From Rhodococcus ruber NBRC 15591 (GTDB lineage Bacteria; Actinomycetota; Actinomycetes; Mycobacteriales; Mycobacteriaceae), in NCBI RefSeq assembly GCF_001894945.1, contig NZ_BCXE01000004.1, forward strand, positions 1 to 64,000: a DNA stretch of 64,000 bases, read 5' to 3'. Below, piece by piece: positions 11,859 through 35,879 of the stretch; the stretch's first letter is position 1, and each line of letters opens with the position of its first letter. The position numbers were made by a program, and so were the translations under genes. Under the pieces are notes generated by a model. It was not told the DNA's origin, searched no databases, and worked only from the letters and a program-made list of their open reading frames with translations.

Positions 11859-11930
11859 CGCTCCAGTGTAGATATTTCAGAGATAAATTAAATGTGAATT
11901 GAGTGTGAGACTCCTCGCTAGGATGGACCC

Positions 11931-21288: not shown

Positions 21289-21374
21289 CGGGAGTCCTCT
21301 CCGGCGATCCGGCGCGTGAGCGCCGAGCCGATGCCGGCGTCGGTGACGAGCGTCGGGCGCCCGGGATGCGTCAT
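21285..21374 (-). CDS. Putative 29-residue small protein or SDR remnant
   Basis: An ATG at 21374 overlaps the stop of the dehydrogenase gene by four bases (ATGA), and the frame's own TGA overlaps the thioesterase ATG by four bases. The peptide begins MTHPGRPTLVTDAGIGSA and ends GEDSR. It recalls the first strand and glycine loop of an SDR (LVTxxxGIGSA), so it could be a decayed Rossmann enzyme kept as a coupling leader, or a real micropeptide. No homologue is known to me. Confidence 0.4.
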   Translation of the reverse strand: MTHPGRPTLVTDAGIGSALTRRIAGEDSR

Positions 21375-22498
21375 GCGGGTGCCCCGATCCTGGGTGCAGA
21401 CCCGAGGACGTCGCCCAGCTCGGCCGCGGTGGCGTCCGCACCGCCGAGGCTGAAGCACAGCTGCCGTCCCCACAGGAAGTAGCGGTGGATCGGGTAGTCC
21501 ACGTCCGCTCCGATACCGCCGTGCAGGTGCTGCGTCGCGTGCACCACCCGCAGACCGCCTCGCGACGCCCACCATTTGGCGACGAGGACCGCGGATTCGG
21601 CCTCCTGCTCCCGTCCGGCGTCGAGCAGCCACGCCGCCCGCCGGGTGGTGAGCCGGATCGCCTCGGTGTCGAGGTAGGCGTCGGCGGCGCGCACCGCCAC
21701 GGCCTGATTGGTCGACAGCGGCCGACCGAACTGGACTCGCTGCGAGGTGTATTCGGCCGTCGTCTGCAGCGCCTGCGCGCACACGCCCAGCTGCACCGCC
21801 GCGAGCGCGAGCTGGATCCGGCGGCGCACCCAGGCGACCGTCTCCGCGCCGTCGCCCGGCAGACGATCGGCCGCGGGCACGACGACGTCGTCGAACCGGA
21901 GGTTGGCGAAGCTGCCGCGGTCGGTGGCGGCGACCGGTTCCACCGTGACGCCGTCCGCCCCGGTCGGTATCACTGCGACGGCGAGCGATCCGTCGTCGCA
22001 CCGGACCGGCACGGTCGTGGCGGCGGCCACGGCCGCGGCGGGCACGCCGGCGACGGTTCCGCTGACGACCAGGTCGTCGCCCTTGCTCACCGCAGACAAC
22101 GAGGTGAGTTCACCGTAGGGTGCGTCGAACGCGGCGACGACCGGTCGGGAGCCGTCCACGATGCCGGGCACCAGCCGTTCGACCTGCTCGGCCGTGCCGA
22201 ACCGGACGATCGCCGACGCGGCCGCCGTCACCGACCACAGCGGCACCGGCGCCACGTGCCGGCCCTGCTGCTCGAGCACGGTGATCAGGCCGAGCAGACC
22301 CATCCCGGCGCCACCGGACTCCTCCGGCACCGCGATGCCGAGCAGACCGGCGTCGGCCAGGGCGCTCCACAGCTTCGCGTCGAAGCCGCCCTCGTTCTTC
22401 TCCACCTCGACGACCCGCTCGACCGGCGCGAGCTGCCGGAAGAGCTGGGACGCCAGGTCCTGCACACTCGTCAGGTCCTCGTCGAGTTCGAAATCCAT
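21371..22498 (-). CDS. Acyl-CoA dehydrogenase family protein, FadE28/ChsE1-like (probable non-catalytic subunit)
   Basis: A 375-residue acyl-CoA dehydrogenase homologue. FAD/CoA-fold elements are visible (GIAVPEESGGAGMG; SQRVQFGRPLSTNQAVAVRAADAY; HLHGGIGADVDYPIHRYF), but no catalytic Glu is seen at either usual place: helix G reads RRRIQLALAAVQLG and the C-terminal loop SLGGADA. In the Mycobacterium ChsE1-ChsE2 heterotetramer one subunit likewise lacks the base. It is adjacent to its likely partner at 22500 (one-base gap), so a heteromeric dehydrogenase of the steroid side chain is inferred. Confidence 0.85.
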   Translation of the reverse strand: MDFELDEDLTSVQDLASQLFRQLAPVERVVEVEKNEGGFDAKLWSALADAGLLGIAVPEESGGAGMGLLGLITVLEQQGRHVAPVPLWSVTAAASAIVRFGTAEQVERLVPGIVDGSRPVVAAFDAPYGELTSLSAVSKGDDLVVSGTVAGVPAAAVAAATTVPVRCDDGSLAVAVIPTGADGVTVEPVAATDRGSFANLRFDDVVVPAADRLPGDGAETVAWVRRRIQLALAAVQLGVCAQALQTTAEYTSQRVQFGRPLSTNQAVAVRAADAYLDTEAIRLTTRRAAWLLDAGREQEAESAVLVAKWWASRGGLRVVHATQHLHGGIGADVDYPIHRYFLWGRQLCFSLGGADATAAELGDVLGSAPRIGAPA

Positions 22499-22499
22499 G

Positions 22500-23708
22500 T
22501 CAGCTCCTCGTGCTGGTGGGGGCGTCGGTGCGGCGACGGGCGGCGAGCGTCATGCCGAGGCACTTGGCGGCGACGATCTCGCGCATCACTTCGTTGGTGC
22601 CGCCGCCGAAGGTGTTGTTCTGGGCTCTGCGCGCCAGGGTTTCGACGCGTCCCTCGACGACGGCTCCGGGGCTGCCGGGCCGCAGCAGGCCACGGACGCC
22701 GAGGATCTCCTGCATCTTGCCGTAGGCGGTGACGACCGCCTCCGTCCCGAAGATCTTGGCAGCGGCGGAGTCTCCGCCGCCGAGCGTGTTCGCAGCGACG
22801 TCCGCGACGAGCCGGAGGTTGACGAGATCGGCGGCGCTGAGCAGTGCGTACGTCTCCGCCAGATTGGTGCGCACCCAGGGCAGGTCGTAGACGGTCCCGG
22901 GGCCCAGGGGCTCGGACTGCGCCCAGGCGAGCACGGCGTCGTACAGCTCGTTCGCGATGCCGCCGCGGGCCGCGAGCGCGACCCGCTCGTGGTTGAGCTG
23001 GTTGGTGATCAGGTCCCAGCCCTGGTTCAGCTCGCCCACGACGTTGGTCAGCGGCACGCGGACGTCGTCGTAGTAGGTGGCGGAGGTGCTGATGCCACCG
23101 ACGGTGTGGATCTCGGTCACCGAGAACCCGGGCGCCGACGTCGGTACCAGCACCACCGAGATGCCCTGGTGCCGCGGTGCGTCCGGGTCGGTGCGGACGG
23201 CCAGCCAGATCCAGTCCGCGTAGACGCCGGCGCTGGTGAAGATCTTGTTGCCGTTGATGACCAGTTCGTCGCCCTCGATGCGGGCGCGGGTCTGCAGCGA
23301 GGCGAGGTCGGTGCCCGCGTTCGGTTCGGTGTAGCCGATCGCGAAGATGAGTTCACCGGCCAGGATCGGCGGTAGGAAGAAGTCCTTCTGCGCCTGGGTC
23401 CCGTGCTTCATCAGCGCCGGCGCGACGGTGTTGAGAGTGACCAGCGACAGCGGTGCGCCGGCCCGGATCACCTCGTCGTAGAACACGTACAGGGCCTCGG
23501 GATCCTCTCCCCGCCCGCCGTATTCGGTGGGCCAGCCGAGACCGAGCCACCCGTCGCGGCCCATCCGTCGCAGGATGCGGTCGAACACGGGTCCGCCCTC
23601 GGTCTGGTCGGCGAGGGCGCGCCGGTCGTCGTCGTCGATGATCTCGGCGAAGTAGTTGCGTAATTCGGTGCGGAGCCGACGTGAATCGTCGGACAGTTCC
23701 GGGTGCAT
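22500..23708 (-). CDS. Acyl-CoA dehydrogenase, FadE29/ChsE2-like (probable catalytic subunit)
   Basis: A 402-residue acyl-CoA dehydrogenase: WLGLGWPTEYGGRG, IGYTEPNAGTDLASLQTRA (FAD site), INGNKIFTSAGVYADWIWLAVRTD and a closing NTFGGGTNEVMREIV. A Glu in helix G (NQLNHERVALAARGG) stands where the isovaleryl-CoA and steroid-type enzymes carry their base. The ATG at 23708 is chosen because homology starts there. Together with the base-less neighbour at 21371 it should form an alpha2beta2 enzyme that desaturates a short steroid side chain. Confidence 0.88.
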   Translation of the reverse strand: MHPELSDDSRRLRTELRNYFAEIIDDDDRRALADQTEGGPVFDRILRRMGRDGWLGLGWPTEYGGRGEDPEALYVFYDEVIRAGAPLSLVTLNTVAPALMKHGTQAQKDFFLPPILAGELIFAIGYTEPNAGTDLASLQTRARIEGDELVINGNKIFTSAGVYADWIWLAVRTDPDAPRHQGISVVLVPTSAPGFSVTEIHTVGGISTSATYYDDVRVPLTNVVGELNQGWDLITNQLNHERVALAARGGIANELYDAVLAWAQSEPLGPGTVYDLPWVRTNLAETYALLSAADLVNLRLVADVAANTLGGGDSAAAKIFGTEAVVTAYGKMQEILGVRGLLRPGSPGAVVEGRVETLARRAQNNTFGGGTNEVMREIVAAKCLGMTLAARRRTDAPTSTRS

Positions 23709-23740
23709 AGCCCCTCCAGGTGGATGTGGTGTGGTCGGTG

Positions 23741-25942
23741 TCAGCGCGGCAGTCCCAGCACGCGACGGGCGATCACGTTCAGCTGGATCTCGATGGTGCC
23801 GCCGCCGAAGAGCACCGCGGGCAGACCGAGGTGGTCGAGCATGTGTCCGTCGTCGTCGGCGGCGCCGAGCGGACCGAGCAGCGAGACCAGCCCGCGCGAG
23901 CCGTCGCGTTGGGCGAGGGCACTGAAGACCTTCTGCACGCTGATCTCCGCCCCGGCGTCGAGACCGGACAACCGGCGCAGCACGCTGCGCAGGTTCATCG
24001 CCGACAGGGCCATCTCGCGGCCGGTGTTGCGGCCGAGGACGCGCAGTGCGTCGTCGCGGGCGGCGGCGTAGCGGCCCGACTCGACGACGTCGCGCACCCG
24101 TGCGGCCGCACCGTGCTCGAGCTGTGCGCCCATGCTGAGCCGTTCGTTGGCGAGGGTGGTCACCGCGAGGCGCCAGCCCTGCCCCGGTTCCGAGACCAGG
24201 CAGTCGTCGGGGACGAAGACGTCGTCGAAGAACACCTCGTTGAACTCCGCCCGCCCGGTCGCCTGCCGCAGCGGTCGCACGTCGAGCCCGTCGCTGCGCA
24301 TGTCGACGAGGAAGTACGAGATGCCCTCGTGCTTGGGCGCATCGGGGTCGGTGCGAGCCAGGCAGATGCCCCAATCCGCCTCGTGCGCCATCGAATTCCA
24401 CACCTTCTGTCCGGTGAGGACCCAGCCGCCGGCCACCTTGCGGGCGCGGGTGGACAGCCCGGCGAGGTCCGAGCCGGCGCCCGGCTCGCTGAACAGCTGG
24501 CACCAGACGATCTCGCCGCGCAGGGTGGGGGTGACGAAACGCCGCTGCTGGTCCTCGGTGCCGTGCCGCAACAGGGTGGGCAGGGCCCACTCGCCGATGA
24601 CGGTGGTCGGCAGTTCGAGGCCGCGGCGCGCGAATTCGTCTGCGATCACGGCCTGTTCCTGCGGTCCGGCCGCGAGGCCGTAGGGCCGAGGATAGTGCGG
24701 CGCGACGAGTCCGGCCTCGGCGAGCCGGGCACGACGTGCCCCGCCGCGTGCCGGCGCCCAGCCGTCGCTGCGCACCGCGTCGTCCGGCAGTGCCCGTACT
24801 TCGTCGAGGACGGCACCGACCTGCGCACGCAGCTCCGGTAGCGCATCGGCTTCGACGAAGGAGAAGTCACGCTCGCCGGACAGCGCGAGCTCACCGAGCC
24901 GGCGCGCCCAGACGTCCTCCGGACCGGCGACGGAGGCGATCGACAGTGCCCGTCGCCAGTACAGGTGCGCGTCGTGTTCCCAGGTGAATCCGATACCGCC
25001 GAGCAGGGTGACGCATTCGAGCGCCACGTCCACGGCCGCCGGGACGGCCGTCAGCCCCGCCTGCGCTGCCGCGAGACGCTGCTGCTCCCGGTCCTGCCCG
25101 ACCGACCGGGCGGCGTCCCATGCCGCCGCGCGGGCGATCTCGCTGCGCACCAGCATCATCGCGGCCTTGTGCTGCACGGCCTGGAAGCTGCCCACGGGTC
25201 GGCCGAACTGGTGGCGGTTGCGGACGTGGTCGACGGCGGTGTCCAGCGCCCACGCCGCGATTCCGGCGGCCTCGGCGCCGAGCACGGTGTTGACGATCAG
25301 CTGCACGTCGTCGTCGGCGATCGCCGGGAGCAGGTGCTCGGGTGTGATCGCCGCTGCGGACAGTCGCAGTCGTCCCACCGATCGGGTGAGGTCCACGCCG
25401 TCGGCGGTCTCGATCTCCCCGGCGGTGGGTGGGAGCCGGAACCACACGGGTGCGCCGTCGGCGGTGGCGCGCACGATCACCTCGTCGGCGCCCGGCAACC
25501 CGAGCACCGGCTCGGAGACACCGGTGACCGTCCATCCCCGCCCCGACGCGGTCGCGACGAGGCCGGGGGTGGTGACGGCGGCGCCGGTCGCGCCCTCGGC
25601 GAACCGCCGCAGCAGGTCCGCGACGAGGCCCTCGGGCGGGAGGGTGGCGACCAACGCCCCGGCCAGTACGGTCGGCACCCACGGGCCGGGAACGAGGGCG
25701 CGGCCGAACTGCTCCGCCACGACCGCGAGTTCCGGCAGTCCCGCCCCACCGCCGCCGTGCTCCTCGGGCAGGTGCAGGGCGTGCAGGCCCTGCGCGACGC
25801 ACGCATCCCAGATCTCCGGCCGCTTGCCCGCCGCCAGGTCGGCGAATGCGGCGCGGGTGCGTTCGATCGGGGCGTGGCGACGGGCGAGGCCCGCGACGGA
25901 GTCGGCGAGGTCGCGGTGGTCGGCGTCGAGTGCGATCGTCAT
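23741..25942 (-). CDS. Two-domain acyl-CoA dehydrogenase, FadE34/ChsE3-like
   Basis: A 733-residue fusion of two acyl-CoA dehydrogenase units, about 1-365 and 366-733. The first has HLPEEHGGGGAGLPELA and NRHQFGRPVGSFQAVQHKAAM but a degenerate substrate loop; the second has the full set (LFSEPGAGSDLAGLSTRARKVAGGWVLTGQKVWNSMAHEADWGI) and ends FGGGTIEIQLNVIARRVLGL. FadE34 of Mycobacterium has this same double layout and acts on five-carbon steroid side chains. It starts three bases after the thiolase stop. Confidence 0.88.
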   Translation of the reverse strand: MTIALDADHRDLADSVAGLARRHAPIERTRAAFADLAAGKRPEIWDACVAQGLHALHLPEEHGGGGAGLPELAVVAEQFGRALVPGPWVPTVLAGALVATLPPEGLVADLLRRFAEGATGAAVTTPGLVATASGRGWTVTGVSEPVLGLPGADEVIVRATADGAPVWFRLPPTAGEIETADGVDLTRSVGRLRLSAAAITPEHLLPAIADDDVQLIVNTVLGAEAAGIAAWALDTAVDHVRNRHQFGRPVGSFQAVQHKAAMMLVRSEIARAAAWDAARSVGQDREQQRLAAAQAGLTAVPAAVDVALECVTLLGGIGFTWEHDAHLYWRRALSIASVAGPEDVWARRLGELALSGERDFSFVEADALPELRAQVGAVLDEVRALPDDAVRSDGWAPARGGARRARLAEAGLVAPHYPRPYGLAAGPQEQAVIADEFARRGLELPTTVIGEWALPTLLRHGTEDQQRRFVTPTLRGEIVWCQLFSEPGAGSDLAGLSTRARKVAGGWVLTGQKVWNSMAHEADWGICLARTDPDAPKHEGISYFLVDMRSDGLDVRPLRQATGRAEFNEVFFDDVFVPDDCLVSEPGQGWRLAVTTLANERLSMGAQLEHGAAARVRDVVESGRYAAARDDALRVLGRNTGREMALSAMNLRSVLRRLSGLDAGAEISVQKVFSALAQRDGSRGLVSLLGPLGAADDDGHMLDHLGLPAVLFGGGTIEIQLNVIARRVLGLPR

Positions 25943-25945
25943 GGC

Positions 25946-27082
25946 CTACATCCGTTCCAGAATCATGCACGTCGTGGCGGCGGACGCGCAGATGGCGATC
26001 ATCGCGACCTGCCGGTCCCGGCGTTCGAGCTCGTCGATCGCGGTGGCCAGCAACCGGATTCCCGTCGCGCCGGCCGGGTGGCCGAGGGCGATGGCACCGC
26101 CGCCGACGTTGAGCACGTCCGGGTCGACCTCGAGCACCTCGGCGAACGACATCGGCACCGCGGCGAAGGCTTCGTTGACCTCGAACAGGTCCACGTCGGC
26201 GACCGTCATCCCGGTGCGGTCGAGCAGCATCTGCGCCGCAGCCACCGGGCCGTCGAGCATGAACTCGGTGTCGCCGCCGATGACGCACTGCGCGAGCAGC
26301 CGGGCCCGCGGCGCCGCGCCGAGTTCTCGTGCCCTGTCCTCGGACATCAGGACCGCGGCGCTCGCCCCGTCGGACACCTGCGACGAGGTGCCGGCGGTGT
26401 GCAGGCCGCCCTCGATCGTGGGACGCAGCCGCGCGAGCGCCTCCGTGCTGGTCTCGCGCAGTCCCTGGTCCCGGGTGACGGTGCTGCTGCCGTCGTCGCC
26501 GGGGACGGCGACGGGGATGATCTGCCGGTCGAACCACCCGGCGTCCCAGGCGTCGCGCGCCCGTTGCTGCGACCTCAGGCCGAACGCGTCGAGGTCCTCG
26601 CGGGCGAAGCCGCGGTGCCGGGCGATGCGGTCGGCCGCGGTGTACTGGTCGGGGGTGTCCACCGACCACGACGCCGGTCGCGGGGTGCCGGCGCCGGTGC
26701 CGACCTTGTAGGTGAGCGGGACCCGCGACATCAGCTCGACGCCGCACGCCAGGCCGACCTCGAGGGTGCCGAGCGCGATCTGCCCGGCGACGAGATGCAC
26801 CGCCTGCAGCGCGGTGCCGCACTGGGCGTCGATGGTGGTGGTCCCGGTGTGGGAGGGCAGGCCGACGTGCATCCACGCGGTGCGGGTGATGTTGCCGAAC
26901 TGCTCCCCGATCGGGGTGACACACCCGCCGACGGCCTGCTCGACGAGGGCGGCGTCGAGGCCGAGCCGGTCGAGCACGCCGCGTTGCGCGAGTCCGAGCA
27001 ACTCGGCGGCGTGCAGACCGGAGATCCAGCCGTCGCGCTTGCCGAAGGGGGTGCGTGCGGCGTCGACGATCACGGGTTTCAT
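25946..27082 (-). CDS. Thiolase (acetyl-CoA acyltransferase, FadA5/FadA6-like)
   Basis: A 378-residue thiolase. The nucleophile Cys is C88 in DAQCGTALQ; also visible are VNEAFA and GGGAIALGHPAGATG. The last catalytic block, normally CxGGG, is replaced by ICASAATTCM, so the second Cys is kept without the Gly-rich turn. The ATG at 27082 has GGAGG 7 bases upstream and overlaps the stop of a 41-codon frame by four bases. It should cleave a 3-ketoacyl-CoA to release acetyl- or propionyl-CoA. Confidence 0.88.
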   Translation of the reverse strand: MKPVIVDAARTPFGKRDGWISGLHAAELLGLAQRGVLDRLGLDAALVEQAVGGCVTPIGEQFGNITRTAWMHVGLPSHTGTTTIDAQCGTALQAVHLVAGQIALGTLEVGLACGVELMSRVPLTYKVGTGAGTPRPASWSVDTPDQYTAADRIARHRGFAREDLDAFGLRSQQRARDAWDAGWFDRQIIPVAVPGDDGSSTVTRDQGLRETSTEALARLRPTIEGGLHTAGTSSQVSDGASAAVLMSEDRARELGAAPRARLLAQCVIGGDTEFMLDGPVAAAQMLLDRTGMTVADVDLFEVNEAFAAVPMSFAEVLEVDPDVLNVGGGAIALGHPAGATGIRLLATAIDELERRDRQVAMIAICASAATTCMILERM

Positions 27083-27204
27083 GCGGGTACCTCCGGTCGG
27101 GTCCACTGTCGGTTGTCGAGGCCGTGGATCTCGAGCCCTGATTCGTCGACCAGGCCGGGGCCGGCGGTGATCCGGCCGGTGAAACGGGACGGCACGACGG
27201 TCAC
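27079..27204 (-). CDS. Putative 41-residue small protein coupled to both neighbours
   Basis: A GTG at 27204 overlaps the stop of the ColD-like gene (GTGA), and the frame ends with a TGA that overlaps the thiolase ATG (ATGA). The peptide starts VTVVPSRFTGRITAGPG and ends NRQWTRPEVPA. It has no membrane segment and I know no homologue. Exact start/stop interlock on both sides argues for translation; it might be a micropeptide subunit or only a coupling frame. Confidence 0.45.
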   Translation of the reverse strand: MTVVPSRFTGRITAGPGLVDESGLEIHGLDNRQWTRPEVPA

Positions 27205-28406
27205 CGCCACTTCGCGGCGAAGGCGTGGATCGCGCCGGTCACGCGGGTGACCTCCTCGTCGGAGAGCCCGTGACTCATGCCCAGCGTCATGCCGCGTTCG
27301 AACACCGCATCGGCCTCGGGCAGCCCCTCGTCGGGCACGCGGTGCTCGACGCCCGCCATCATGGGATGGCGGGTGATGTTGCCGCTCCACACGGTTCGGG
27401 TGTCGATGCCCTGCGCTTCGACGAACTCCTGCAGGTCACTGCGGGAGAACGGGGCGTCGGCGGAGACCGTGACGGGATAGCACAGCCAGGCGGTGTCGAG
27501 GCCGTCGGTTTCGACCGGCGTGCGGAAGAACTCGGGGTAGGCGCCGTATGCGGCGGTGAACTCCGCGAAGGTCTTGCGGCGCCGCTCGTAGTTCTGCGCG
27601 AGCTTGTTCAGCTGCACGACGCCGTAGGCGGCGCCGAGTTCGGACGGTTCGAAGTTCCACGGCAGCAGATCGAAGATGAAGTCGTTGTCGTAGTCGACCC
27701 CGTCCAGATCCTCCCGGAAGACGCGTCCACCCCCGTTGCCGAACAGGTTCGGCTCGGAGCGACGTCCCCAGCGGCGAAGCAGGAGTGCACGATCACGGGT
27801 CTGCTCGTCGTCCATCATGACCATGCCGCCGGTGCCGGCACACGTGATGATGTGGGCCATGGAGAAGCTGGTGACGCTCAGGTCGGCACGCGCGCCGGTG
27901 GGCGTGCCGTGCAGCCGGGCACCGAGGGTGTCGCAGGTGTCCTCGATCACCTTCAGGCCGTGCCGGTCGGCGACGGTCCGGATCGCGTCCCAGTCGGGGC
28001 AGTTGCCGGCGAGGTTCGGGACGAGCACGGCGCTGGTGCGGTCGGTGACCATCGCCTCGATCTTGGTGACGTCGACGTTGAACGTGTCCGGTTCGACGTC
28101 GACGAAGACCGGTACCAGGCCGGCGCGCACGAGGGGCGCGACGTCGGTGGAGAAGGTCAGCGGCGAGGTGATGACCTCGCTGCCCTTCGGCAGGTCGAGC
28201 AGCTCGACCGCGAGGTACAGGCCGGACGATCCGGAGTTGCACATCACGCCGTACTGCTTCCCGGACAGCTCGGGGATGCGGCGTTCGAGCTCGAAGACGT
28301 TCTTGCCGATGCGCAGCCCCTGATGGCCGCTGCGCAGGACGTCGACCACCGCTCGGATTTCGTCCTCGCCGTGGGTGGCGCGGGCATAGGTGATGCGTTC
28401 GGTCAT
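27201..28406 (-). CDS. DegT/DnrJ/EryC1-fold PLP enzyme of the lysine-less ColD/RfbH type
   Basis: A 401-residue fold-type I PLP protein. It shows CNSGSSGLYLAVELL (phosphate site), GLVPVFVDVEPDTFNVDV and IEDTCDTLGARLHG, with the cofactor Asp at about 156. The site of the Schiff-base Lys reads SFSMAHIITCAGTGG, that is His185 where aminotransferases have Lys, as in ColD and the E1 3-dehydrases (family pattern SFYPAHHIT). The region after RRWGRR lacks the Cys set that binds [2Fe-2S] in E1. ColD-type enzymes use PLP plus glutamate to remove a hydroxyl next to a ketone. Its place inside a steroid-type degradation operon is unexpected; the substrate is unknown. Confidence 0.85.
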   Translation of the reverse strand: MTERITYARATHGEDEIRAVVDVLRSGHQGLRIGKNVFELERRIPELSGKQYGVMCNSGSSGLYLAVELLDLPKGSEVITSPLTFSTDVAPLVRAGLVPVFVDVEPDTFNVDVTKIEAMVTDRTSAVLVPNLAGNCPDWDAIRTVADRHGLKVIEDTCDTLGARLHGTPTGARADLSVTSFSMAHIITCAGTGGMVMMDDEQTRDRALLLRRWGRRSEPNLFGNGGGRVFREDLDGVDYDNDFIFDLLPWNFEPSELGAAYGVVQLNKLAQNYERRRKTFAEFTAAYGAYPEFFRTPVETDGLDTAWLCYPVTVSADAPFSRSDLQEFVEAQGIDTRTVWSGNITRHPMMAGVEHRVPDEGLPEADAVFERGMTLGMSHGLSDEEVTRVTGAIHAFAAKWR

Positions 28407-28435: not shown

Positions 28436-29635
28436 TCAGTTGTCGGCGGAGAGCACGAGTGCGCTGTGCGGCACCGGGGAGCCGCCCGTGACCAGAACGT
28501 TCGACACGTCCTTGCCGGGCTGGTTCACCGACGTACCGCGGATCAGGCGCACGCCCTCGGCGATTCCGTTGACGCCGTGGATGTATCCCTCGCCGAGTTG
28601 TCCGCCGTGGGTGTTGACGGGCAGGCGGCCGTCGAGTTCGAGGTTGCCGTCCGCGATGAAGTCCTTGGCCTCGCCGCGGCCGCAGAACCCGTACTCCTCG
28701 AGTTGCAGCAGCACCATCGGGGTGAACGCGTCGTAGAGGATCGCGGCGTCGATGTCGTCCGGATCGATGCCGGCCTGATCCCACAGCTGCCGTGCCACCA
28801 GCTCGACCTCGGGCATCTCGTCGATGTCCTCGCGGTAGTAGCTGCTCATGGAGATCTGCTGGGGTCCGACGCCTTGCGCGGCGGCGGAGACGACGGCCGG
28901 CGGGTGCGGCAGGTCGCGGGCCCGCTCGGTGCTGACGATCACCAGGGCCTGGCCGCCGTCGCTCTCCTGGCAGCAGTCGAGGAGCCGCAGCGGGTCGGCG
29001 ATCATCCGGGAGTTCTGGTGGTCGTCGAGGGTGATGGGCCGCTCGTAGAACCAGGCCCTGGGGTTGACGGCGGCGTGCTTGCGCGAGAGCACGGAGATGC
29101 GGCCGAAGTCGGCGCTGGTCGCCCCGTACTTGTGCATGTAGCGCCGGGCGAGGAACGCCTCCTGCTGGGCGGGGGTGAGCAACCCGTAGGGGTTGATCCA
29201 GTTGCGGTATTCCTGGTCGGTGTTGGCCGTGTAGGCGAACGGCGGCGGGCCGGCGCCGAACCGGGTGCCGGAGCGTTCGTTGAAGGCCCGGTAGACGACC
29301 ACGACGTCGGCGACCCCACTGGCCACGGCGAGCGCCGCCTGCTGCACGGGTGCGCACGCGCCGCCGCCGCCGTGCGGGATGCGGCTGAAGAACGTCAGTT
29401 CGGGGATGCCGAGTGCCCGGGCGACCGCGATCTCGGGGTTGGTCTCCATCGTGAACAGCGCGAAGCCGTCCACCTCCTCGACGCCGATCTGCGCGTCCTC
29501 GAGCGCGGCGAGCACGCTCTCGCAGGCCAGCTGCCATTCGCTGCGCCCGGAGTTCTTGGAGAACTCGGTGGCGCCGATACCCGCGATCGCCGCCTTGCGG
29601 GCGAAACCCCCGTCGGGAATTGCCTTGCCGCTCAT
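28436..29635 (-). CDS. ltp2: Ltp2-type thiolase-fold aldolase (lipid-transfer protein)
   Basis: A 399-residue thiolase-fold protein without the thiolase Cys motifs. GIGATEFSKNSGRSE, YRAFNERSGTRFG, LLDCCQESDGG, YDAFTP and INTHGGQLGEGYIHG are the hallmark blocks of Ltp2 (Rv3540c family), which with a DUF35 partner cleaves the 17-hydroxy steroid side-chain CoA ester by retro-aldol reaction to give a 17-ketone and propionyl-CoA. The two Tyr residues reported as catalytic in Ltp2 fall in YDAF and GEGYIHG here. Overlaps the MaoC gene upstream by four bases. Confidence 0.92.
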   Translation of the reverse strand: MSGKAIPDGGFARKAAIAGIGATEFSKNSGRSEWQLACESVLAALEDAQIGVEEVDGFALFTMETNPEIAVARALGIPELTFFSRIPHGGGGACAPVQQAALAVASGVADVVVVYRAFNERSGTRFGAGPPPFAYTANTDQEYRNWINPYGLLTPAQQEAFLARRYMHKYGATSADFGRISVLSRKHAAVNPRAWFYERPITLDDHQNSRMIADPLRLLDCCQESDGGQALVIVSTERARDLPHPPAVVSAAAQGVGPQQISMSSYYREDIDEMPEVELVARQLWDQAGIDPDDIDAAILYDAFTPMVLLQLEEYGFCGRGEAKDFIADGNLELDGRLPVNTHGGQLGEGYIHGVNGIAEGVRLIRGTSVNQPGKDVSNVLVTGGSPVPHSALVLSADN

Positions 29636-30042
29636 CGTGTCTGTCCTTCGTACGGTGCGACGGTGACCTCGGCGGTCACATGTGTTCCTCGGGCGTTGCG
29701 GCCGAGCACCTCGACGGTGACGGCGCCGGCGTCGACGCGGGTCACCGTCCCGGTCAGGCGCATGGTGTCGCCGGGAAAGTTGGGGACGCCCAGCCGCAGT
29801 GCGACGCGGCGGATGCGGGCGGCCGGCCCGGCCCAGTCGGTGATGTAGCGGTCGACGAATCCGTTCGTCGAGTTGATGCTCATGAAGATGTCGGGCGTGC
29901 CGCGCTTTTCGGCTGCACCCGGATCGTGGTGCACATCCTCGAAATCCTGGGAGGCGATCGCGGTGGCGACGATGGTGCTGCGGTCGAGCGGTAGGTCCAG
30001 TGCCGGCAGTTCGGTGCCGACGGACACGGTCGGCAGGCTCAT
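29632..30042 (-). CDS. MaoC-like hydratase small subunit (ChsH1-like)
   Basis: A 136-residue single hotdog domain: LDRSTIVATAIASQDFEDVHHDPGAAEKRGTPDIFMSINSTNGFVDRYITDW holds the hydratase-2-like D-x-x-x-x-H arrangement (DFEDVHHD), followed by PNFPGDTMRLTGTV. In Mycobacterium ChsH1 pairs with the MaoC part of ChsH2 to hydrate the enoyl-CoA side chain. Four-base overlaps with both neighbours indicate tight coupling. Confidence 0.88.
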   Translation of the reverse strand: MSLPTVSVGTELPALDLPLDRSTIVATAIASQDFEDVHHDPGAAEKRGTPDIFMSINSTNGFVDRYITDWAGPAARIRRVALRLGVPNFPGDTMRLTGTVTRVDAGAVTVEVLGRNARGTHVTAEVTVAPYEGQTR

Positions 30043-30449
30043 GCGGCACCCCCGCCCGGAAGGCGCAGCTGCGGCAGGATTTCGCCGTGCGCGTGCTCGG
30101 CGAAGCCGACCTCGAGCTCCATGCCGATCCGCAGCCGGTCGTGCTCGACCCCGGCGATGTCGGCGACGATCCGGATGCCCTCCTCGAGGTCGATCAGCCC
30201 GACCGCGAGGGGATAGTCGAAGGACGGGTCCTTCGGGTGGTGGATCACGGTCCAGCTGTGCAGGGTGCCGCGGCGCGACGACTCGACGGTGTCCCACTTG
30301 AAGGAGCGGCACTTCGGGCACGCCGGTCCCGGCGGATGCCGGAGTGCGCCGCAGTCGCTGCAGCGCTGGATCTCGAGCCTGCCCTCGCGGGCGGCTGCGA
30401 ACCAGAACTCGTTGTCCTGGGTGATCGTCAACCTGGGAACGGCCGTCAT
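30039..30449 (-). CDS. DUF35 / OB-fold zinc-ribbon protein (ChsH2 C-terminal-domain homologue)
   Basis: A 136-residue protein with an N-terminal helix, a rubredoxin-like zinc ribbon (CSDCGALRHPPGPACPKC) and an OB fold (GTLHSWTVIHHPKDPSFDYPLAVGLIDLEEG). In the Mycobacterium Igr operon this domain is fused to a MaoC domain as ChsH2 and is needed by Ltp2; here it is a separate gene, one base overlapping the MaoC-like gene upstream. It probably forms the Ltp2-DUF35 aldolase complex. Confidence 0.9.
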   Translation of the reverse strand: MTAVPRLTITQDNEFWFAAAREGRLEIQRCSDCGALRHPPGPACPKCRSFKWDTVESSRRGTLHSWTVIHHPKDPSFDYPLAVGLIDLEEGIRIVADIAGVEHDRLRIGMELEVGFAEHAHGEILPQLRLPGGGAA

Positions 30450-31012
30450 CACGCCTCCTCGGTGGTGTTCGGGTCGAAGCGGAGCAACCGGAATCGCTCC
30501 TCGACGAGCAGGTCGCCGTGCTGGTTCTCGTAGCGCTTGTGCAGGGTGACGAAGCAGCCGCGGCCGAGGCCGGTGCGTTTGACCGGGGAGATCGACTCGA
30601 TGGTGAAGTGCGCGGTGACGTGGTCGCCCCGGACGAGTTCGCGGTGGTAGTCCTGCTCGACGTTGGTGGCGACCACGGAGGTGAAGCCGTGCCGGTCCAG
30701 CAGAGTCATCAGCTCGGAGTAGGCGAAGTCCTCGGTCCGTCCTTCGGTGCGCAGCCGCTGCACCTCGCGCCAGCGCCGGTAGCCGGCCATCACCCACGTC
30801 GAGATCATCGCGGGCGGGCACACTACGTCCGGTCGCCCAGTCGCGCGGGCCGCGTCCCGGTCGACATAGACGGGGTTGTAGTCGTCGTGGGCCTCGACCC
30901 AGTTCCGGATCATCGCCTCGTCGACGGCGTACCGGGCCACCCGGGCGGGCTCGGCCACCCGCCCGACGTACTGCTCGAACTCCCGTTCCAACTCCTGTTC
31001 CAGCGTCGGCAC
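30449..31012 (-). CDS. MaoC/FAS1-dehydratase-like hotdog protein (ChsH2 N-terminal-domain homologue)
   Basis: A 187-residue protein matching the N-terminal MaoC-like half of ChsH2: IRNWVEAHDDYNPVYVDRDAARATGRPDVVCPPAMISTWVMAGYR, then FTSVVATNVEQDYHRELVRGDHVTAHFTIESISPVKRTGLGRGCFVTLHKRY. I start it at the GTG at 31012, with AAAGG 10 bases upstream and a KstR2-like operator directly before it. First gene of the long operon. Partner of the ChsH1-like protein. Confidence 0.85.
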   Translation of the reverse strand: MPTLEQELEREFEQYVGRVAEPARVARYAVDEAMIRNWVEAHDDYNPVYVDRDAARATGRPDVVCPPAMISTWVMAGYRRWREVQRLRTEGRTEDFAYSELMTLLDRHGFTSVVATNVEQDYHRELVRGDHVTAHFTIESISPVKRTGLGRGCFVTLHKRYENQHGDLLVEERFRLLRFDPNTTEEA

Positions 31013-31031
31013 GTCCGCACCACCTTTCTTG

Positions 31032-31045
31032 AGCAAGCGCTTGGT
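31032..31045. promoter_or_regulatory. Perfect KstR2-type operator
   Basis: AGCAAGCGCTTGGT fits the published KstR2 motif AnCAAGnnCTTGnT at every fixed position and lies 20 bases upstream of the operon's first start codon, between it and the divergent TetR gene. A TetR dimer bound here would control both directions. Confidence 0.75.
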
Positions 31046-31153
31046 GCAGTACGGTAGGCGCGGATGCCCCGCCGGGACGGCCCGTTCCCACTCAGTTGGA
31101 ACGGACGGCAGAAAACTCGAGCCGAACCGGCGAAACGGAAGGGAAAAGTGACC

Positions 31154-31732
31154 ATGACGTCGGACCGACGCGACGAGATCATGCGGCTCGCGGCCGAACT
31201 CTTCGCAACCAAGGGGATCGCCCCCACGACGGTCCGCGACATCGGCGAACGCGCCGGAGTGTTCTCCGGAAGCCTGTACCACTTCTTCAGATCGAAGAAT
31301 GCGATCGTCGCCGAGATCCTCAGCGGCTTCATGGCCGACATCGACCAGCGCTTCCGGCGCGTGGTGGAGACATCGACGAGCGCGCGCGAGACGGTGCGCG
31401 GCCTGATTCGGCAAACGCTCGCCGTGATCGAGGAACATCCCCATCCGACGGCGATCTACCAGCAGAACCGGCAATACCTGCGCGACAACGGCCTGCTCGA
31501 CGTCGTCGACGCGCCGTCACGCACGGTGCGTGACTACTGGCTCACCGCCCTCGCAGCCGGTGTCGCCGACGGCAGCTTCCGCTCCGACATTCCCGCCGAG
31601 GTCTTCTACCGCACCGTGCGGGACACACTGTGGGCGAGCATGCACTGGCCGGGACGCGACGACTACACGACGGACGAGTTCACCGACCTGCTCGTCGCGC
31701 TGTTCTTCGGGGGCTTCGCGGAGGAGAAATGA
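31154..31732 (+). CDS. TetR-family regulator, KstR2-like
   Basis: A 192-residue TetR protein: RDEIMRLAAELFATKGIAPTTVRDIGERAGVFSGSLYHFFRSKNAIVAEILSGFM is close in pattern to KstR2 (TTVRDIxxxAGxxSGSLYHxFxSK), and the C-terminal domain has VFYRTVRDTLWASMHW, as in KstR2 (VYRFIRDTTWVSVRW). Start taken at the ATG at 31154; a GTG at 31148 is also possible. Divergent from the operon with the matching operator. In KstR2 the effector is a CoA thioester of the C/D-ring fragment; here the ligand is inferred to be a CoA thioester too. Confidence 0.9.
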   Translation: MTSDRRDEIMRLAAELFATKGIAPTTVRDIGERAGVFSGSLYHFFRSKNAIVAEILSGFMADIDQRFRRVVETSTSARETVRGLIRQTLAVIEEHPHPTAIYQQNRQYLRDNGLLDVVDAPSRTVRDYWLTALAAGVADGSFRSDIPAEVFYRTVRDTLWASMHWPGRDDYTTDEFTDLLVALFFGGFAEEK

Positions 31733-31754: not shown

Positions 31755-32960
31755 CTACGCCCCGTCGGGCCGGGCCGACGGCGCCGGCGTCCCCGCCTGG
31801 GCATCCAGGAGCGCGTCGATGCTGCCGGGTCCCAGCCCGAGTTCCGCCAGAACCTCGCGGGTGTGCTGCCCATGCTGCGGCGCCGGGCGCGCCCCGGTGT
31901 ACGTCCCGTCCCAGCGCAACGGGGAGCGCGCCGTCGGTACCGCACCGACACCGGGCTGTTCGACGCGTTCGATCACGGCATACTCGCGGGCGGCCACCTC
32001 GTCCATGGTCCGGTACGGCGCCCACAGCACCCGGCTGCCGGACAGTTCCTTCTCGATCTCGGCGAGCGTGCGCGCCGCGAACCACGGACGCAGGATCGCG
32101 GTGATCTCGTCCCGCACAGCGTAGCGGTCGCCCTCGTCGGCGAATCGCAGCCCGCGATGCCGTTCGAGTGCCGCGAACACCTCGGCGGTGCCGGTGACCT
32201 CGACGAGCCCCCGCCACTGGGCGGCGGTGAGGCCGACGACCATGACGGCACGGCCGTCGGCGGTGGCGAAATCCGAGCCGTAGCTGCCGTACAGCGCGTT
32301 GCCCTGCCGCTCCCGGCCGGACCCGCGTTCCTCCGCCTCGGCCAGCCAGCCCATGCTCGCGACCGCGGACACCGCGACGTCCTCGAGGGCGAGTTCGAGG
32401 TAGGCGCCCTCACCCGTGCGATCCCGCCGCCGCAGCGCGGCGACGATGCCCAGGGCCGCCTGCACCCCGGTGATCAGGTCCCAGGCCGGGAGCACGTGGT
32501 TCACCGGGACCGTCCCGTCGACGGGTCCGGTCATCAGGGGCAGCCCGACCGCGGCGTTGACGGTGTAGTCCACCGCCGGCGAGCCGTCGGCGTTGCCGGC
32601 GATGTGCAGGTGGATCAGGTCGGGCCGCCGTGCGGCGAGCACGTCGTGCGCGAGCCAGGGCGCGCGGGCCGCGTTCTCGAGCACGATGCCCGCCTCGGCG
32701 ATCAGGTCGGTGACGACGGCGCGGCCGTCCTCGCTGCGCAGATCCACCGCGACGGACCGCTTCGCCTGGTTCAGGCCCGTCCAGTACAGGCTCGCCCCCG
32801 ACCCCGCGAGGGGCCAGCGACCACCGTCGACCGCGCCACCGAGCGGGTCCACACGGATCACGTCCGCGCCGAGCTCGGCGAGGATGCGCCCGGCGGTCGG
32901 TCCGGCGACGAAGCTGGACAGGTCGACGACGCGCACCCCGTCGAGCGGGCGCGTCGTCAT
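31755..32960 (-). CDS. Class III CoA-transferase (CaiB/BaiF family)
   Basis: A 401-residue CoA transferase. The N-terminus MTTRPLDGVRVVDLSSFVAGPTAGRILAELGADVIRVDPLGG is diagnostic, and GLNQAKRSVAVDLRSEDGR follows. The catalytic Asp region lies around PAWDLITGVQAALGIVAALRRRDRTGEGAYLELAL. These enzymes move CoA between acids and could activate a steroid or aliphatic acid without ATP. It overlaps the thiolase gene by four bases and is the last gene of its operon. Confidence 0.88.
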   Translation of the reverse strand: MTTRPLDGVRVVDLSSFVAGPTAGRILAELGADVIRVDPLGGAVDGGRWPLAGSGASLYWTGLNQAKRSVAVDLRSEDGRAVVTDLIAEAGIVLENAARAPWLAHDVLAARRPDLIHLHIAGNADGSPAVDYTVNAAVGLPLMTGPVDGTVPVNHVLPAWDLITGVQAALGIVAALRRRDRTGEGAYLELALEDVAVSAVASMGWLAEAEERGSGRERQGNALYGSYGSDFATADGRAVMVVGLTAAQWRGLVEVTGTAEVFAALERHRGLRFADEGDRYAVRDEITAILRPWFAARTLAEIEKELSGSRVLWAPYRTMDEVAAREYAVIERVEQPGVGAVPTARSPLRWDGTYTGARPAPQHGQHTREVLAELGLGPGSIDALLDAQAGTPAPSARPDGA

Positions 32961-34192
32961 GCCACCCTCTCGAAGATCGCCGTCAACCCCTGCCCACCGC
33001 CGATGCACATCGTCTCGAGTCCGTACCGCGCTCCGCGGCGGTCGAGTTCGCGCAGCAGCGTGGCGAGGATGCGCACGCCGGTCGCCCCGACCGGGTGACC
33101 GAGCGAGATTCCCGAGCCGTTGACGTTGGTCCGCTCGAAATCGGCTGCCGTGAAGCCCCACTCGCGGGTCACCGCCAGCGCCTGCGCCGCGAACGCCTCG
33201 TTGAGTTCGATCAGGTCGATGTCGGCGAGCGTGAGACCGGCCCGCTTCAGGGCCTTCTCGGTCGAGGGCACCGGTCCGATGCCCATCTCGGCCGGTGCGA
33301 CGCCGGCCACCGCCCACGTGACCAGCCGGCCCAGCGGTCGCAGGCCGAGCCGCTCCGAATGGGCGCGGGTCGTGACGAGACACGCTGCGGCACCGTCGTT
33401 CTGACCGCTGGCGTTACCTGCGGTCACCGTCGCCTCCGGGTCCTGCGCCGCCATGATCGGCCGGAGCCTGGCGAGGGTGTCGACGGTGGTGTCGGCCCGC
33501 GGGTGCTCGTCCCGGTCCACGACCCGGTCGTCACCCTTGCGCTGGGGCACGGACACCGGCACGATCTCCTCCGCGAACACCCCCGAGTCGATCGCCGCCA
33601 CCGCACGCCGATGCGACTCGACCGCCAGTTCGTCCTGTTCGCGACGACCGATCCCGTACTTGCGGCGCAGGTTCTCCGCGGTCTCGAGCATCCCGCCGGG
33701 CACGGGATGGTTTCGCCCGCCGGCGGTCACACGGCCACGAGCGAGCCGGTCGTGCAGCGCGGCCGGCGCGCCCTTGGCGCCCCACCGCATCGATTCGGTG
33801 TAGTACTCGGCGCGGCTCATGGATTCGACGCCACCGGCGATCACGACGTCGGCCACGCCCGTCTGCACGCGCATCGCGGCGTCGAGCACGGCCTGCAGCC
33901 CGGACCCGCACCGCCGGTCGAGTTGCAGGCCCGGCACGGTCACCGGCAGGCCCGCGTCGAGCGCGGCGACGCGGCCGATCGCGGGGGCCTCCCCGTTGGG
34001 GTAGCACTGGCCGAAGATCACGTCGTCCACCGATTCCGGGTCGATCCCGGTGCGGGACATCAGCTCCGAGATCACCTGGGCGGCGAGGTCGGTGGCGGGC
34101 ACGTCGACGAACACCCCACCGTACCGGCCGACGGGCGTGCGCAGGGGCTCGCAGATCACCACGTCGTCGGCGGTCGCATCAGTTGTCGTCAT
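32957..34192 (-). CDS. Thiolase (acetyl-CoA C-acyltransferase)
   Basis: A 411-residue canonical thiolase: nucleophile C95 in DRRCGSGLQ, then LNEAFAAQ, GSGISLGHPVGATG and the intact CIGGGQG. Compared with the thiolase at 25946 it has all motifs, so the two are unlikely to be redundant. The start at 34192 overlaps the acyl-CoA ligase stop by 14 bases. It performs the thiolytic step of a beta-oxidation cycle. Confidence 0.92.
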   Translation of the reverse strand: MTTTDATADDVVICEPLRTPVGRYGGVFVDVPATDLAAQVISELMSRTGIDPESVDDVIFGQCYPNGEAPAIGRVAALDAGLPVTVPGLQLDRRCGSGLQAVLDAAMRVQTGVADVVIAGGVESMSRAEYYTESMRWGAKGAPAALHDRLARGRVTAGGRNHPVPGGMLETAENLRRKYGIGRREQDELAVESHRRAVAAIDSGVFAEEIVPVSVPQRKGDDRVVDRDEHPRADTTVDTLARLRPIMAAQDPEATVTAGNASGQNDGAAACLVTTRAHSERLGLRPLGRLVTWAVAGVAPAEMGIGPVPSTEKALKRAGLTLADIDLIELNEAFAAQALAVTREWGFTAADFERTNVNGSGISLGHPVGATGVRILATLLRELDRRGARYGLETMCIGGGQGLTAIFERVA

Positions 34193-35879
34193 GTCGGAAG
34201 TCCCTTTCCCGGTCGGTCCAGTCCTGCGCCCACTCGCGCAGTTCCACGGCACGGATCTTGGTGCCGTTGCCGCCCACCGTCGTGGGCATCGCCTCGATGA
34301 CGTGAATCATCGTGGGCACCTTGAACGCGGCGAGCGTTTCGGCACACCAGGCCTTCAGCGACGTCGCATCGAAGTCGGCCGGGGCGTCGTCGGCGGGGAC
34401 GACGAAACCCACGGCCCGGGTGTAGCCGCCGTCGCCGGTGATGCCGACGACCTTGGCCGTCCGCACCCCGGGGTGCTCGGCCAGCCGGTGCTCGATCTCG
34501 GCCGGGTCCACGAGAAATCCCCGCAGCCGCAGCACGTCTCCCATCCGGCACACGTAGGTGCAGCCGCCGTCGCCGGTCGCGACAGCGAGATCGCCGCTGC
34601 GGAACCAGCCGTCGGCGGTGAACGCGCGCGCGGCGGCGTCGGGGTTGCCGAGGTAGGCGTCGACGACGTTGGGGCCGCGCAGTTGCAGCTCGCCCTGCTC
34701 GCCGTCCGGAAGCACCCGGTCGTCGAGCGGGTCGGCGATACGCACCCGGATCGCCGGATCGACCGGCCGGCCGCCGCCGTTCCAGCGCACCGACTCCGGG
34801 TCGTCGTCCGACCAGAGCAGGGTCAGCGCGAACACCTCGGACGAGCCGAACACCCCCGAGGTGTGGGCGGCGAACTCGTCGCGGGCCCAGCGGGCGATCT
34901 CGTGGGAGCGGCCGAGGAAGTCGGCGATGCCGAGCCACTTCAGTGCGGACAGGTCGGCGCGCACTTCGCCGTGCCACGTGTCGTACAGGCGTCCGAACAG
35001 GTCGTCGCCGCCGACCACGTGCGTCACGTGCAGGTGCTCCATGCGGCGCAGCGTCGCCGCCGCGTCGAAGACCGGCTCCATGAGCAGCGTGGCGCCCCCG
35101 GCGAGGGCGGCCATCGCGGTGCTGTAGCCGAACACGCCGGACACCGGCAGCACGCACAGCGCGACGTCGCCGGGGGCGACCCGCATGATCGCGGCGTCCG
35201 CGCGGGCGTGCCGCACCACCGCGGAGTCCCGGTGCGCCGCGAGCTTCGGGGTGCCGGTGGAGCCGGAGGTGGTGAACGCGACGGCCAGCGGATCCGCCGG
35301 ATCGTCCTCCGTCCCGGCCGGGGTGGGCACGGCGGTGTCCGGGGTGTCCGGGACGCGCACCCCGCGGGTGTCGCCGCTGCCCGCCCACCAGGAGCCCGCG
35401 CCGAGATCGAATCCGGTCGGATCGCCGGCGTCGGTGCCGGGGCCGCCCACGACGGCGACCGCGGGGGGCGGCACCGCCGCGGTGCCCGCCGCGTCGCGCA
35501 GGGTGCCGAACAGGTCGAGCCCGTGGAAACCGGCCGCGACGGCCACGACCGCGGGCCGCGCGGCCGTGAGGATGTGGGCCACCTCCCCGGTGTTGTAGCG
35601 GGTGTTGACCCCGATGACGTGGGCGCCGAGCGCGGCGGCCGCGAACTGCCAGACGAGCGCGTCGGACCAGTTGGGGAGCAGGACGGCGACGCACCGGCCG
35701 CGCTCGACGCCGACGGCCTCGAGTTCGGTCCGCAGCGCCTGCGCGCGGCGGCGAAGCTCGGCCCGAGTGCAGGCCAGCAGCCGGCCGTCGGCGACGTCGT
35801 AGGTGACCACGGCGTCCGGATCGGCGGCGACGAGGTCGTCGAGGAAGGCGGCGAGCCCCGCGGTGGTCGTGGCGGTCAC
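34179..35879 (-). CDS. AMP-dependent acyl-CoA synthetase/ligase
   Basis: A 566-residue ANL-family ligase: P-loop TTSGSTGTPKLAAH, then FGSSEVFAL in place of the usual YGxTE, RSGDLAV, and LRLRGFLVDPAEIEHRLAEHPGVRTAKVVG. The catalytic Lys region near the end reads GNGTKIRAVELREWA. It makes acyl-CoA from an acid, ATP and CoA. The GTG at 35879 overlaps the hydrolase stop by four bases. Substrate unknown; a steroid or cyclic acid is suggested by context. Confidence 0.88.
   Translation of the reverse strand: MTATTTAGLAAFLDDLVAADPDAVVTYDVADGRLLACTRAELRRRAQALRTELEAVGVERGRCVAVLLPNWSDALVWQFAAAALGAHVIGVNTRYNTGEVAHILTAARPAVVAVAAGFHGLDLFGTLRDAAGTAAVPPPAVAVVGGPGTDAGDPTGFDLGAGSWWAGSGDTRGVRVPDTPDTAVPTPAGTEDDPADPLAVAFTTSGSTGTPKLAAHRDSAVVRHARADAAIMRVAPGDVALCVLPVSGVFGYSTAMAALAGGATLLMEPVFDAAATLRRMEHLHVTHVVGGDDLFGRLYDTWHGEVRADLSALKWLGIADFLGRSHEIARWARDEFAAHTSGVFGSSEVFALTLLWSDDDPESVRWNGGGRPVDPAIRVRIADPLDDRVLPDGEQGELQLRGPNVVDAYLGNPDAAARAFTADGWFRSGDLAVATGDGGCTYVCRMGDVLRLRGFLVDPAEIEHRLAEHPGVRTAKVVGITGDGGYTRAVGFVVPADDAPADFDATSLKAWCAETLAAFKVPTMIHVIEAMPTTVGGNGTKIRAVELREWAQDWTDRERDFRHDDN

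Follow-up and report, generated by a model that had tools for sequence, protein, structure and literature searches.

What would an enzyme of the type known from deoxysugar biosynthesis be doing in an operon that appears built for the degradation of steroid side chains? The question is raised by a gene at positions 27201..28406, on the minus strand, of a 64,000-nucleotide stretch of Rhodococcus ruber NBRC 15591 (contig NZ_BCXE01000004.1), the whole of which is referred to here as the window. A first-pass annotation had given exactly these coordinates, leaving the strand unstated, and the gene is indeed a single open reading frame of 401 amino acids (aa) ending in a stop. It encodes an enzyme of the DegT family, dependent on pyridoxamine or pyridoxal 5'-phosphate (PMP/PLP), with a His in place of the Schiff-base Lys. 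We observe, besides this His-for-Lys site, a broken set of iron-sulfur (Fe-S) ligands, a distinct conserved clade, purifying selection and, in the subclade of the window, a fixed linkage to a side-chain operon. With moderate confidence we propose that the protein is a PMP-dependent alpha-hydroxyketone dehydroxylase, i.e. a nucleotide-sugar 3-dehydratase recruited to steroid catabolism.

The protein scores 262.9 bits against PF01041 (DegT/DnrJ/EryC1/StrS, gathering score 19.8 bits), and its best match in the Protein Data Bank (PDB) is the dehydrase E1 (3bcx). Where the DegT aminotransferases carry the Schiff-base Lys it has His185 (codon 27852..27854, minus strand), located in the motif SFSMAHIITCAGTGG (residues 180-194; 27825..27869, minus strand). 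Both phmmer and profile alignments place His185 at the E1 position occupied by His in 3bcx and by Lys in 3bb8; we take these to be His220 and its H220K variant. The residue is invariant in the 44 sequences of alignment A2, and His is found at this site in 97 of the 99 rows of a larger alignment, with Lys solely in two outgroup rows. The latter alignment comprises 83 rows of the clade (the window protein and 82 loci), five alphaproteobacterial, seven E1-like, two ColD-like and the two Lys outgroup rows; the set of homologue loci draws on the best 80 of at least 582 relatives, and the duplicates L001-L011, L017, L018 and L025-L035 were skipped. The first-pass annotation had reported the replacement and had allowed for a Lys at the cofactor after all, but a mis-aligned Lys can be ruled out since none falls on the cofactor position in the E1, profile or 99-row alignments. 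The ColD alignment as printed is off by one residue owing to a shorter ColD loop; judging from the SF-x3-[H/K] spacing common to E1, the window protein and the aminotransferases, His185 would be the counterpart of ColD His188. Further residues shared with E1 round the cofactor are also kept (D156/D159 and the TR...GN..R.P segment). A decayed gene is ruled out by a ratio of nonsynonymous to synonymous substitution rates (dN/dS) of 0.11-0.14 against four orthologues, i.e. the gene is under purifying selection.

The Fe-S ligands are a different matter. In E1 we take Cys193, Cys251, Cys253 and Cys261 to be the ligands of the [2Fe-2S] cluster. The stretch that holds the last three contains no Cys in any of the 83 clade rows or of the five alphaproteobacterial rows, and three to four Cys in all seven E1-like rows. 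The earlier claim that the E1 Cys set is missing thus holds for three positions and fails at the fourth: the column of Cys193 has kept its Cys in every one of the 83 clade rows (Cys158 in the window protein). Because this column is retained while three positions are lost, the ligand set is better described as broken than as fully absent. In other words, the window protein has the His of E1/RfbH and not their four Cys, and it combines a His for Lys with an incomplete ligand set, as ColD does. The first-pass likeness to "ColD/RfbH" therefore needs to be divided. Among solved structures the A2 profile scores E1 highest (280 bits), ColD reaches 197 bits and the best Lys-bearing aminotransferases 197-195 bits, and in a single-sequence search several Lys-bearing aminotransferases outrank ColD. 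The protein is accordingly nearer to E1/RfbH in sequence, and its likeness to ColD lies in the incomplete ligand set, not in descent.

A quick maximum-likelihood tree, with Shimodaira-Hasegawa-like approximate likelihood ratio (SH-aLRT) support in place of a bootstrap, puts the window protein in a clade A of 23 rows (support 99), with locus L058 as sister and a clade B of 22 rows (support 97) next to it. All 83 clade rows form one group (support 98), and the alphaproteobacterial rows, whose genes lie in sugar operons, are its sister (support 99). The recruitment from a sugar enzyme suggested by the first-pass annotation fits this topology. The deepest forks, leading to E1 and ColD, are unsettled and carry long-branch warnings; under the same proviso, the ColD-like sequences L016 and L116 branch apart from the clade. 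The 82 clade loci are mostly titled actinobacteria, with a few metagenome-assembled genomes (MAGs) titled "bacterium" or, in L103, Deltaproteobacteria. One record, L106, is titled as a Bifidobacterium breve MAG and clusters with Microthrix-like sequences, so its label looks wrong, and L108, an actinobacterial MAG contig, has two DegT-like genes two genes apart (49% and 56% identity to that of the window).

There are three places where the clade departs from the sugar enzymes. Asp88 (codon 28143..28145, minus strand) is Asp in 83 of 83 clade rows and Thr in all 14 sugar-type His rows (five alphaproteobacterial, seven E1-like, two ColD-like). Trp340 (27387..27389, minus strand) is Trp throughout the clade, Phe in the 12 alphaproteobacterial and E1-like rows and Val in the two ColD-like rows. 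Residues 27-30 (GHQG; 28317..28328, minus strand) mark an insert, present in 82 of 83 clade rows, which is three residues long relative to the E1-like and alphaproteobacterial rows and two relative to the ColD-like rows. Judged from the alignment, this looks like a change of specificity upon a retained catalytic site.

These differences bear on the simplest alternative, namely that the protein is an ordinary RfbH-like nucleotide-sugar 3-dehydratase sitting by chance in a catabolic operon. In its favour, the best NCBIfam model is RfbH (NF011936), the top PDB match is E1 and the sister group has rfbF and rfbG homologues nearby at five of five loci. Yet the RfbH score of 250.4 bits is far under the cut-off of 423, while an E1-like protein of a relative reaches 617 bits, and the CDP-sugar genes rfbF and rfbG have no homologue at any of the 82 clade loci within the available DNA (loci 3.6 to 31 kb long). 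Taken with the clade-specific residues and with the linkage to Ltp2 described below, this makes the alternative very improbable. The first-pass annotation had raised the prospect of homologues mainly in sugar operons, with this gene as a stray insertion; on the count of 0/82 within this DNA we reject a stray sugar gene. The alphaproteobacterial enzymes (L021-L024, L122), which are RfbH-like without the three E1 Cys and have a homologue of an S-adenosylmethionine (SAM) methyltransferase nearby in four of five cases, may themselves be sugar 3-dehydratases working without E3.

The linkage to steroid-type genes is most regular in clade A. Here each of the 22 loci has a gene for Ltp2 immediately upstream of the DegT gene, 19-122 bases separating the called genes, and these loci span Rhodococcus, Nocardia, Nocardioides, Geodermatophilus, Blastococcus, Actinomadura, Streptosporangium and Tomitella. 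The genes typically run in the order hydratase, oligonucleotide/oligosaccharide-binding (OB)-fold protein, MaoC, Ltp2, DegT, often a short-chain dehydrogenase/reductase (SDR), thiolase, double acyl-coenzyme A (CoA) dehydrogenase and a pair of acyl-CoA dehydrogenases. As exceptions, the OB-fold and/or MaoC genes were not called in L047, L050 and L052, L039 begins inside the operon, and the thiolase or double dehydrogenase is relocated in L037, L043 and L044. An unbroken neighbourhood of this kind would also be expected of a non-catalytic partner in an Ltp2 complex, or of a His-site B6 enzyme of other chemistry, e.g. a beta-elimination or a helper of the retro-aldol step. The function of the clade is so far a prediction, and Ltp2 is described in PMC8708139 as acting in complex with the OB-fold domain of ChsH2. 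Against such a role stand the retained cofactor residues shared with E1, and the fact that in clades B and C the gene mostly persists with no Ltp2 close by (Ltp2 at 1/22 and 1/37 loci, respectively); we consider it improbable.

In the window itself the gene lies, as the first-pass annotation had it, between Ltp2 and thiolase genes, all on the minus strand. The Ltp2-type retro-aldolase of thiolase fold (28436..29635) scores 654.9 bits with the "lipid-transfer protein" model NF005892 (cut-off 469) and matches PF22691, the name Ltp2 being our reading, and the FadA5-like steroid 3-ketoacyl-CoA thiolase (25946..27106) scores 577.9 bits with NF005889 (cut-off 515). Upstream of Ltp2 are a MaoC-like hydratase (29632..30042; PF01575, 28.3 bits against a cut-off of 27), which we take to be ChsH1-like, a protein with the C-terminal OB-fold/zinc-ribbon domain of ChsH2 (DUF35) as a separate gene (30039..30431; PF01796, PF12172) and a hydratase subunit with a FAS1-like dehydratase region (30449..31036; PF13452). 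On the other side of the thiolase lie a double acyl-CoA dehydrogenase of 733 aa (23741..25942), with two acyl-CoA dehydrogenase stretches and no NCBIfam model above cut-off, and two acyl-CoA dehydrogenase subunits with Pfam matches (22500..23708, for which the slightly longer in-frame span 22500-23723 was searched, and 21371..22498); presumably the three are FadE34/ChsE3-like, ChsE2-like and ChsE1-like, respectively. An igr-type operon is recognised by an Ltp2-type aldolase, a FadA5-type steroid thiolase and a ChsH2-type OB-fold/zinc ribbon, and the window has all three, the last as a separate gene. A TetR regulator (31148..31732, plus strand; PF00440) diverges from the core operon, and 16 of the 22 clade A loci have a homologue in the corresponding position. 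Further upstream, the block 31755-38666 (minus strand) contains genes for CaiB, a thiolase, an adenosine monophosphate (AMP)-ligase, a hydrolase and an acyl-CoA dehydrogenase; homologues of 84-98% identity lie beside the operon in R. aetherivorans (L036), and no close counterpart was found in the available flanks of the other 21 clade A loci.

The genome of the window contains two further copies of Ltp2 (68% and 65% identity, contigs C23 and C34), and the DegT protein used as query finds one match there, itself (threshold 0.001). The locus is thus a third steroid-type side-chain operon and the sole one with a DegT gene. On C23 and C34 the counterparts of the hydratase and OB-fold proteins are encoded by genes of 314-351 aa, as opposed to the two separate short genes of the window. 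The same genome has three full-length KshA matches and a weak one, and KstD-like proteins at 72, 46 and 34% identity. The DegT gene has a GC content of 0.678 (0.91 at third codon positions), near that of the Ltp2 and MaoC genes and below the thiolase and double dehydrogenase genes (0.73); these values do not point clearly to a recent transfer.

Clade members, counted from an identity of 60% upwards, were found in 11 of 101 relatives (the member is incomplete in two, being in pieces in G004 and at a contig end in G055), and KshA is present in all 11, compared with 46 of the 90 relatives without a member (Fisher p 0.002). In a sample of the phylum a member was found in 6 of 396 genomes, with a KshA match in 5 of these 6 (one weak) versus 30 of 390.

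Which hydroxyl might such an enzyme remove? The dehydration chemistry and the steroid substrate, and with them the removal of a steroid hydroxyl that the first-pass annotation had put forward, are suggested by the operon context and by chemical reasoning. The retro-aldol step of Ltp2 yields a C17 ketone. The mechanism requires a ketone with a hydroxyl in the alpha position, and C16 is the sole D-ring position alpha to the C17 ketone on a hydrogen-bearing carbon; for this reason the 16-hydroxyl beside the ketone left by Ltp2 would be the most likely site within the steroid class, an assignment that we hold with low confidence. PMP would condense with the ring ketone to a ketimine, His185 would take the C4' proton and the hydroxyl on the adjacent carbon would depart; hydrolysis would then give PLP and an enamine, the enamine would lose ammonia to leave the deoxygenated ketone, and glutamate would restore PMP. 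These steps are the ones described for ColD, the characterised enzyme of the group that lacks Fe-S, and His-for-Lys 3-dehydratases are known from deoxysugar biosynthesis, both according to PMC8987622. In this way 16-oxygenated steroids could be admitted to the ordinary 17-ketone pathway. It is possible, albeit somewhat unlikely, that we are looking at the first vitamin-B6-dependent step of steroid catabolism known to us, a PMP/His dehydratase that takes the 16-hydroxyl off 16-hydroxy-17-ketosteroids.

The ketone might come from Ltp2 in clade A; the candidate source in clades B and C is an SDR acting on a 16,17-diol. SDRs belonging to a single family (identity to the L038 enzyme 48-100%) adjoin the gene in parts of all three clades. 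In clade A the SDR gene follows immediately in 17 of 22 loci (18 if the two-piece L044 is counted), and in L045 it lies upstream. Clade B has it two genes downstream at 6 of 22 loci, and in clade C it is at most two genes away at 5 of 37 loci, once on the other strand. In L044 (Nocardioides alcanivorans, 11224-12028) the SDR appears as two overlapping tblastn pieces in different frames, which indicates a frameshift or an assembly error. An SDR in this position would fit the oxidation of an alcohol to the activating ketone, and SDR and dehydratase may even be the older pair. The same chemistry could then act on another vicinal pair of the steroid, the SDR oxidising one alcohol of a 6,7-diol (hyocholate/muricholate type) or a 2,3-diol (ecdysteroid or maslinic-acid type) and the enzyme removing the other hydroxyl; the gene types of the operon would suffice for two rounds of side-chain beta-oxidation, as we take to be needed for C24 acids. 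On the other hand, an SDR of this family is missing next to the gene in the window and in L036, L037 and L042, the best SDR match in the genome of the window reaches just 39% over 218 residues, and a ring A/B step would need no tie to Ltp2. We regard this alternative as fairly unlikely. That Ltp2 delivers the ketone in clade A would agree with its unbroken linkage there and with the dispensable SDR.

Outside clade A the surroundings are more mixed. Neighbours were scanned for 17 of 22 clade B loci (111 of 127 listed proteins; five loci were set aside as near-copies) and for 21 of 37 clade C loci (105 of 121; eight set aside as near-copies, and L097, L099, L100, L102, L106 and L110 omitted as no DegT gene was called). 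Of the 22 clade B loci, 8 have KstD or KshA homologues (among them L075, from which the KstD query was taken), two neighbours (L063 and L075) pass the 3-ketosteroid-delta-1-dehydrogenase model NF009479, and the Pfam tally of the 111 proteins includes two KshA domains. Together with the Ltp2 linkage of clade A this bears out the steroid-type context of the first-pass annotation. The most frequent neighbours in clade C are SDRs, amidohydrolases, MarR regulators and CoA enzymes. In six clade B loci (L065, L066, L068, L069, L070 and L072) a closely similar amidohydrolase (91-100% identity to that of L066) occurs and the SDR lies two genes past the DegT gene; L066 has in addition another amidohydrolase and a double acyl-CoA dehydrogenase, and L068 is the only one of the six with Ltp2 in its neighbourhood. 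The six loci represent a small catabolic cluster, so far unnamed.

A non-steroid cyclic or terpenoid substrate, degraded by the same B6 chemistry through a steroid-type side-chain operon, could account for the scanned neighbours of clades B and C, among which are amidohydrolases, SDRs, luciferase-like monooxygenases and enzymes of CoA metabolism in place of a full steroid set, and for the iolC and sugar-oxidoreductase genes that lie some kilobases from the gene on R. erythropolis plasmid pLRE138 (L019). Such a substrate appears distinctly unlikely given that the window thiolase passes a steroid model, that the OB-fold protein matches ChsH2 domains, that clade B has KstD and KshA neighbours, and that all 11 clade members among the relatives come with KshA.

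Several observations nevertheless weigh against a 16-dehydroxylase of steroid catabolism. Cys158 is a kept Fe-S ligand position, although Cys in the same column of the two ColD-like rows softens the point. Adjacency to Ltp2 is confined to clade A, and L058, the sister of clade A, has nothing of the operon; in clade C KstD-like proteins are found at 1 of 37 loci and KshA at none, and the steroid link is weak there because the genes are mostly of general catabolism. Many clade C contigs are short (3.6-21 kb), which limits the absence of sugar genes to that span, and two of the 105 neighbours in clade C have matches to PF00483, a nucleotidyl-transferase family; these two were not placed, as none of 10 candidates scanned belongs to that family. 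The SDR is wanting beside the gene in the four loci named above, the window included. In the phylum sample KshA is missing in G200 and weak in G360 (3.7e-8), and the co-occurrence counts are confounded by kinship, with two genomes common to both samples. Finally, the estriol-to-estrone consortium considered below ended up dominated by Croceicoccus estronivorus, according to PMC12507874. The observed reaction is therefore unlinked to this gene, the dominant organism not being among the strains shown to carry it. We take Croceicoccus to be an alphaproteobacterium.

If the proposal is right, the clade would be a new use, in steroid-type catabolic operons, of a well-understood mechanism, and a concrete candidate for an orphan reaction, the loss of the C16 hydroxyl from 16alpha-hydroxyestrone, an oestrogen metabolite in sewage cultures. 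In PMC12502722 a sewage consortium is described as converting estriol to 16alpha-hydroxyestrone and then to estrone; from the metabolites a putative dehydroxylase was proposed to take off the C16 hydroxyl, the enzyme is given as unknown, and to the knowledge of its authors such a dehydroxylation was unreported before in microbial oestrogen metabolism. The clade would supply the enzyme for this step, and 16-oxygenated sterols, sapogenins and bile acids would be opened to the common 17-ketone pathway. The titles and abstract beginnings of the literature searched contain no report of a DegT-family gene in steroid catabolism. In term searches both "aminotransferase" and "DegT" were absent from PMC7807495, PMC8708139, PMC6498646, PMC4810484 and PMC10653915, "aminotransferase" was absent from PMC9782250 and PMC12502722, and PMC8399759 had none of the terms used for 6- or 16-hydroxylated bile acids.

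It is instructive to compare the window protein with the systems it resembles. Probably it works like ColD, yet it falls outside RfbH by its Fe-S ligands, score and context, and outside ColD by phylogeny and context. With E1/RfbH (CDP-6-deoxy-L-threo-D-glycero-4-hexulose-3-dehydrase, 3bcx) it shares the His, the TR...GN..R.P C-terminal segment, a Cys at one ligand place and the highest score among solved structures; it differs in the loss of three of the four [2Fe-2S] Cys, a score under the RfbH cut-off, the lack of rfbF/rfbG homologues nearby, D88 for Thr, W340 for Phe and the three-residue insert. ColD (GDP-4-keto-6-deoxy-D-mannose 3-dehydratase, 2gms and 3gr9) has the same His for Lys, and for both proteins no Fe-S cluster and a PMP/glutamate cycle are expected, but ColD scores level with the best Lys-bearing aminotransferases, has a shorter active-site loop and sits on a separate branch, and the ColD-like gene L116, unlike that of the window, adjoins gmd and a GDP-fucose synthase gene. 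The alphaproteobacterial enzymes without the three E1 Cys (on plasmids of Sinorhizobium, Ensifer, Leisingera, Roseibium and Palleronia) are the sister group, with 46-49% identity, the His and the same extra loop residue, and are set apart by the rfbF and rfbG homologues near them, Thr at 88, Phe at 340 and no insert. As for the operon, its counterparts are those of the igr/cas type, whose gene order we take to be chsE1-chsE2-chsH1-chsH2-ltp2: the acyl-CoA dehydrogenase pair, the hydratases, the ChsH2-type OB-fold protein, Ltp2 and the FadA5-type thiolase are common to both, whereas the OB-fold and hydratase parts are split in the window and, of the three Ltp2 loci in the genome, only that of the window has a DegT gene.

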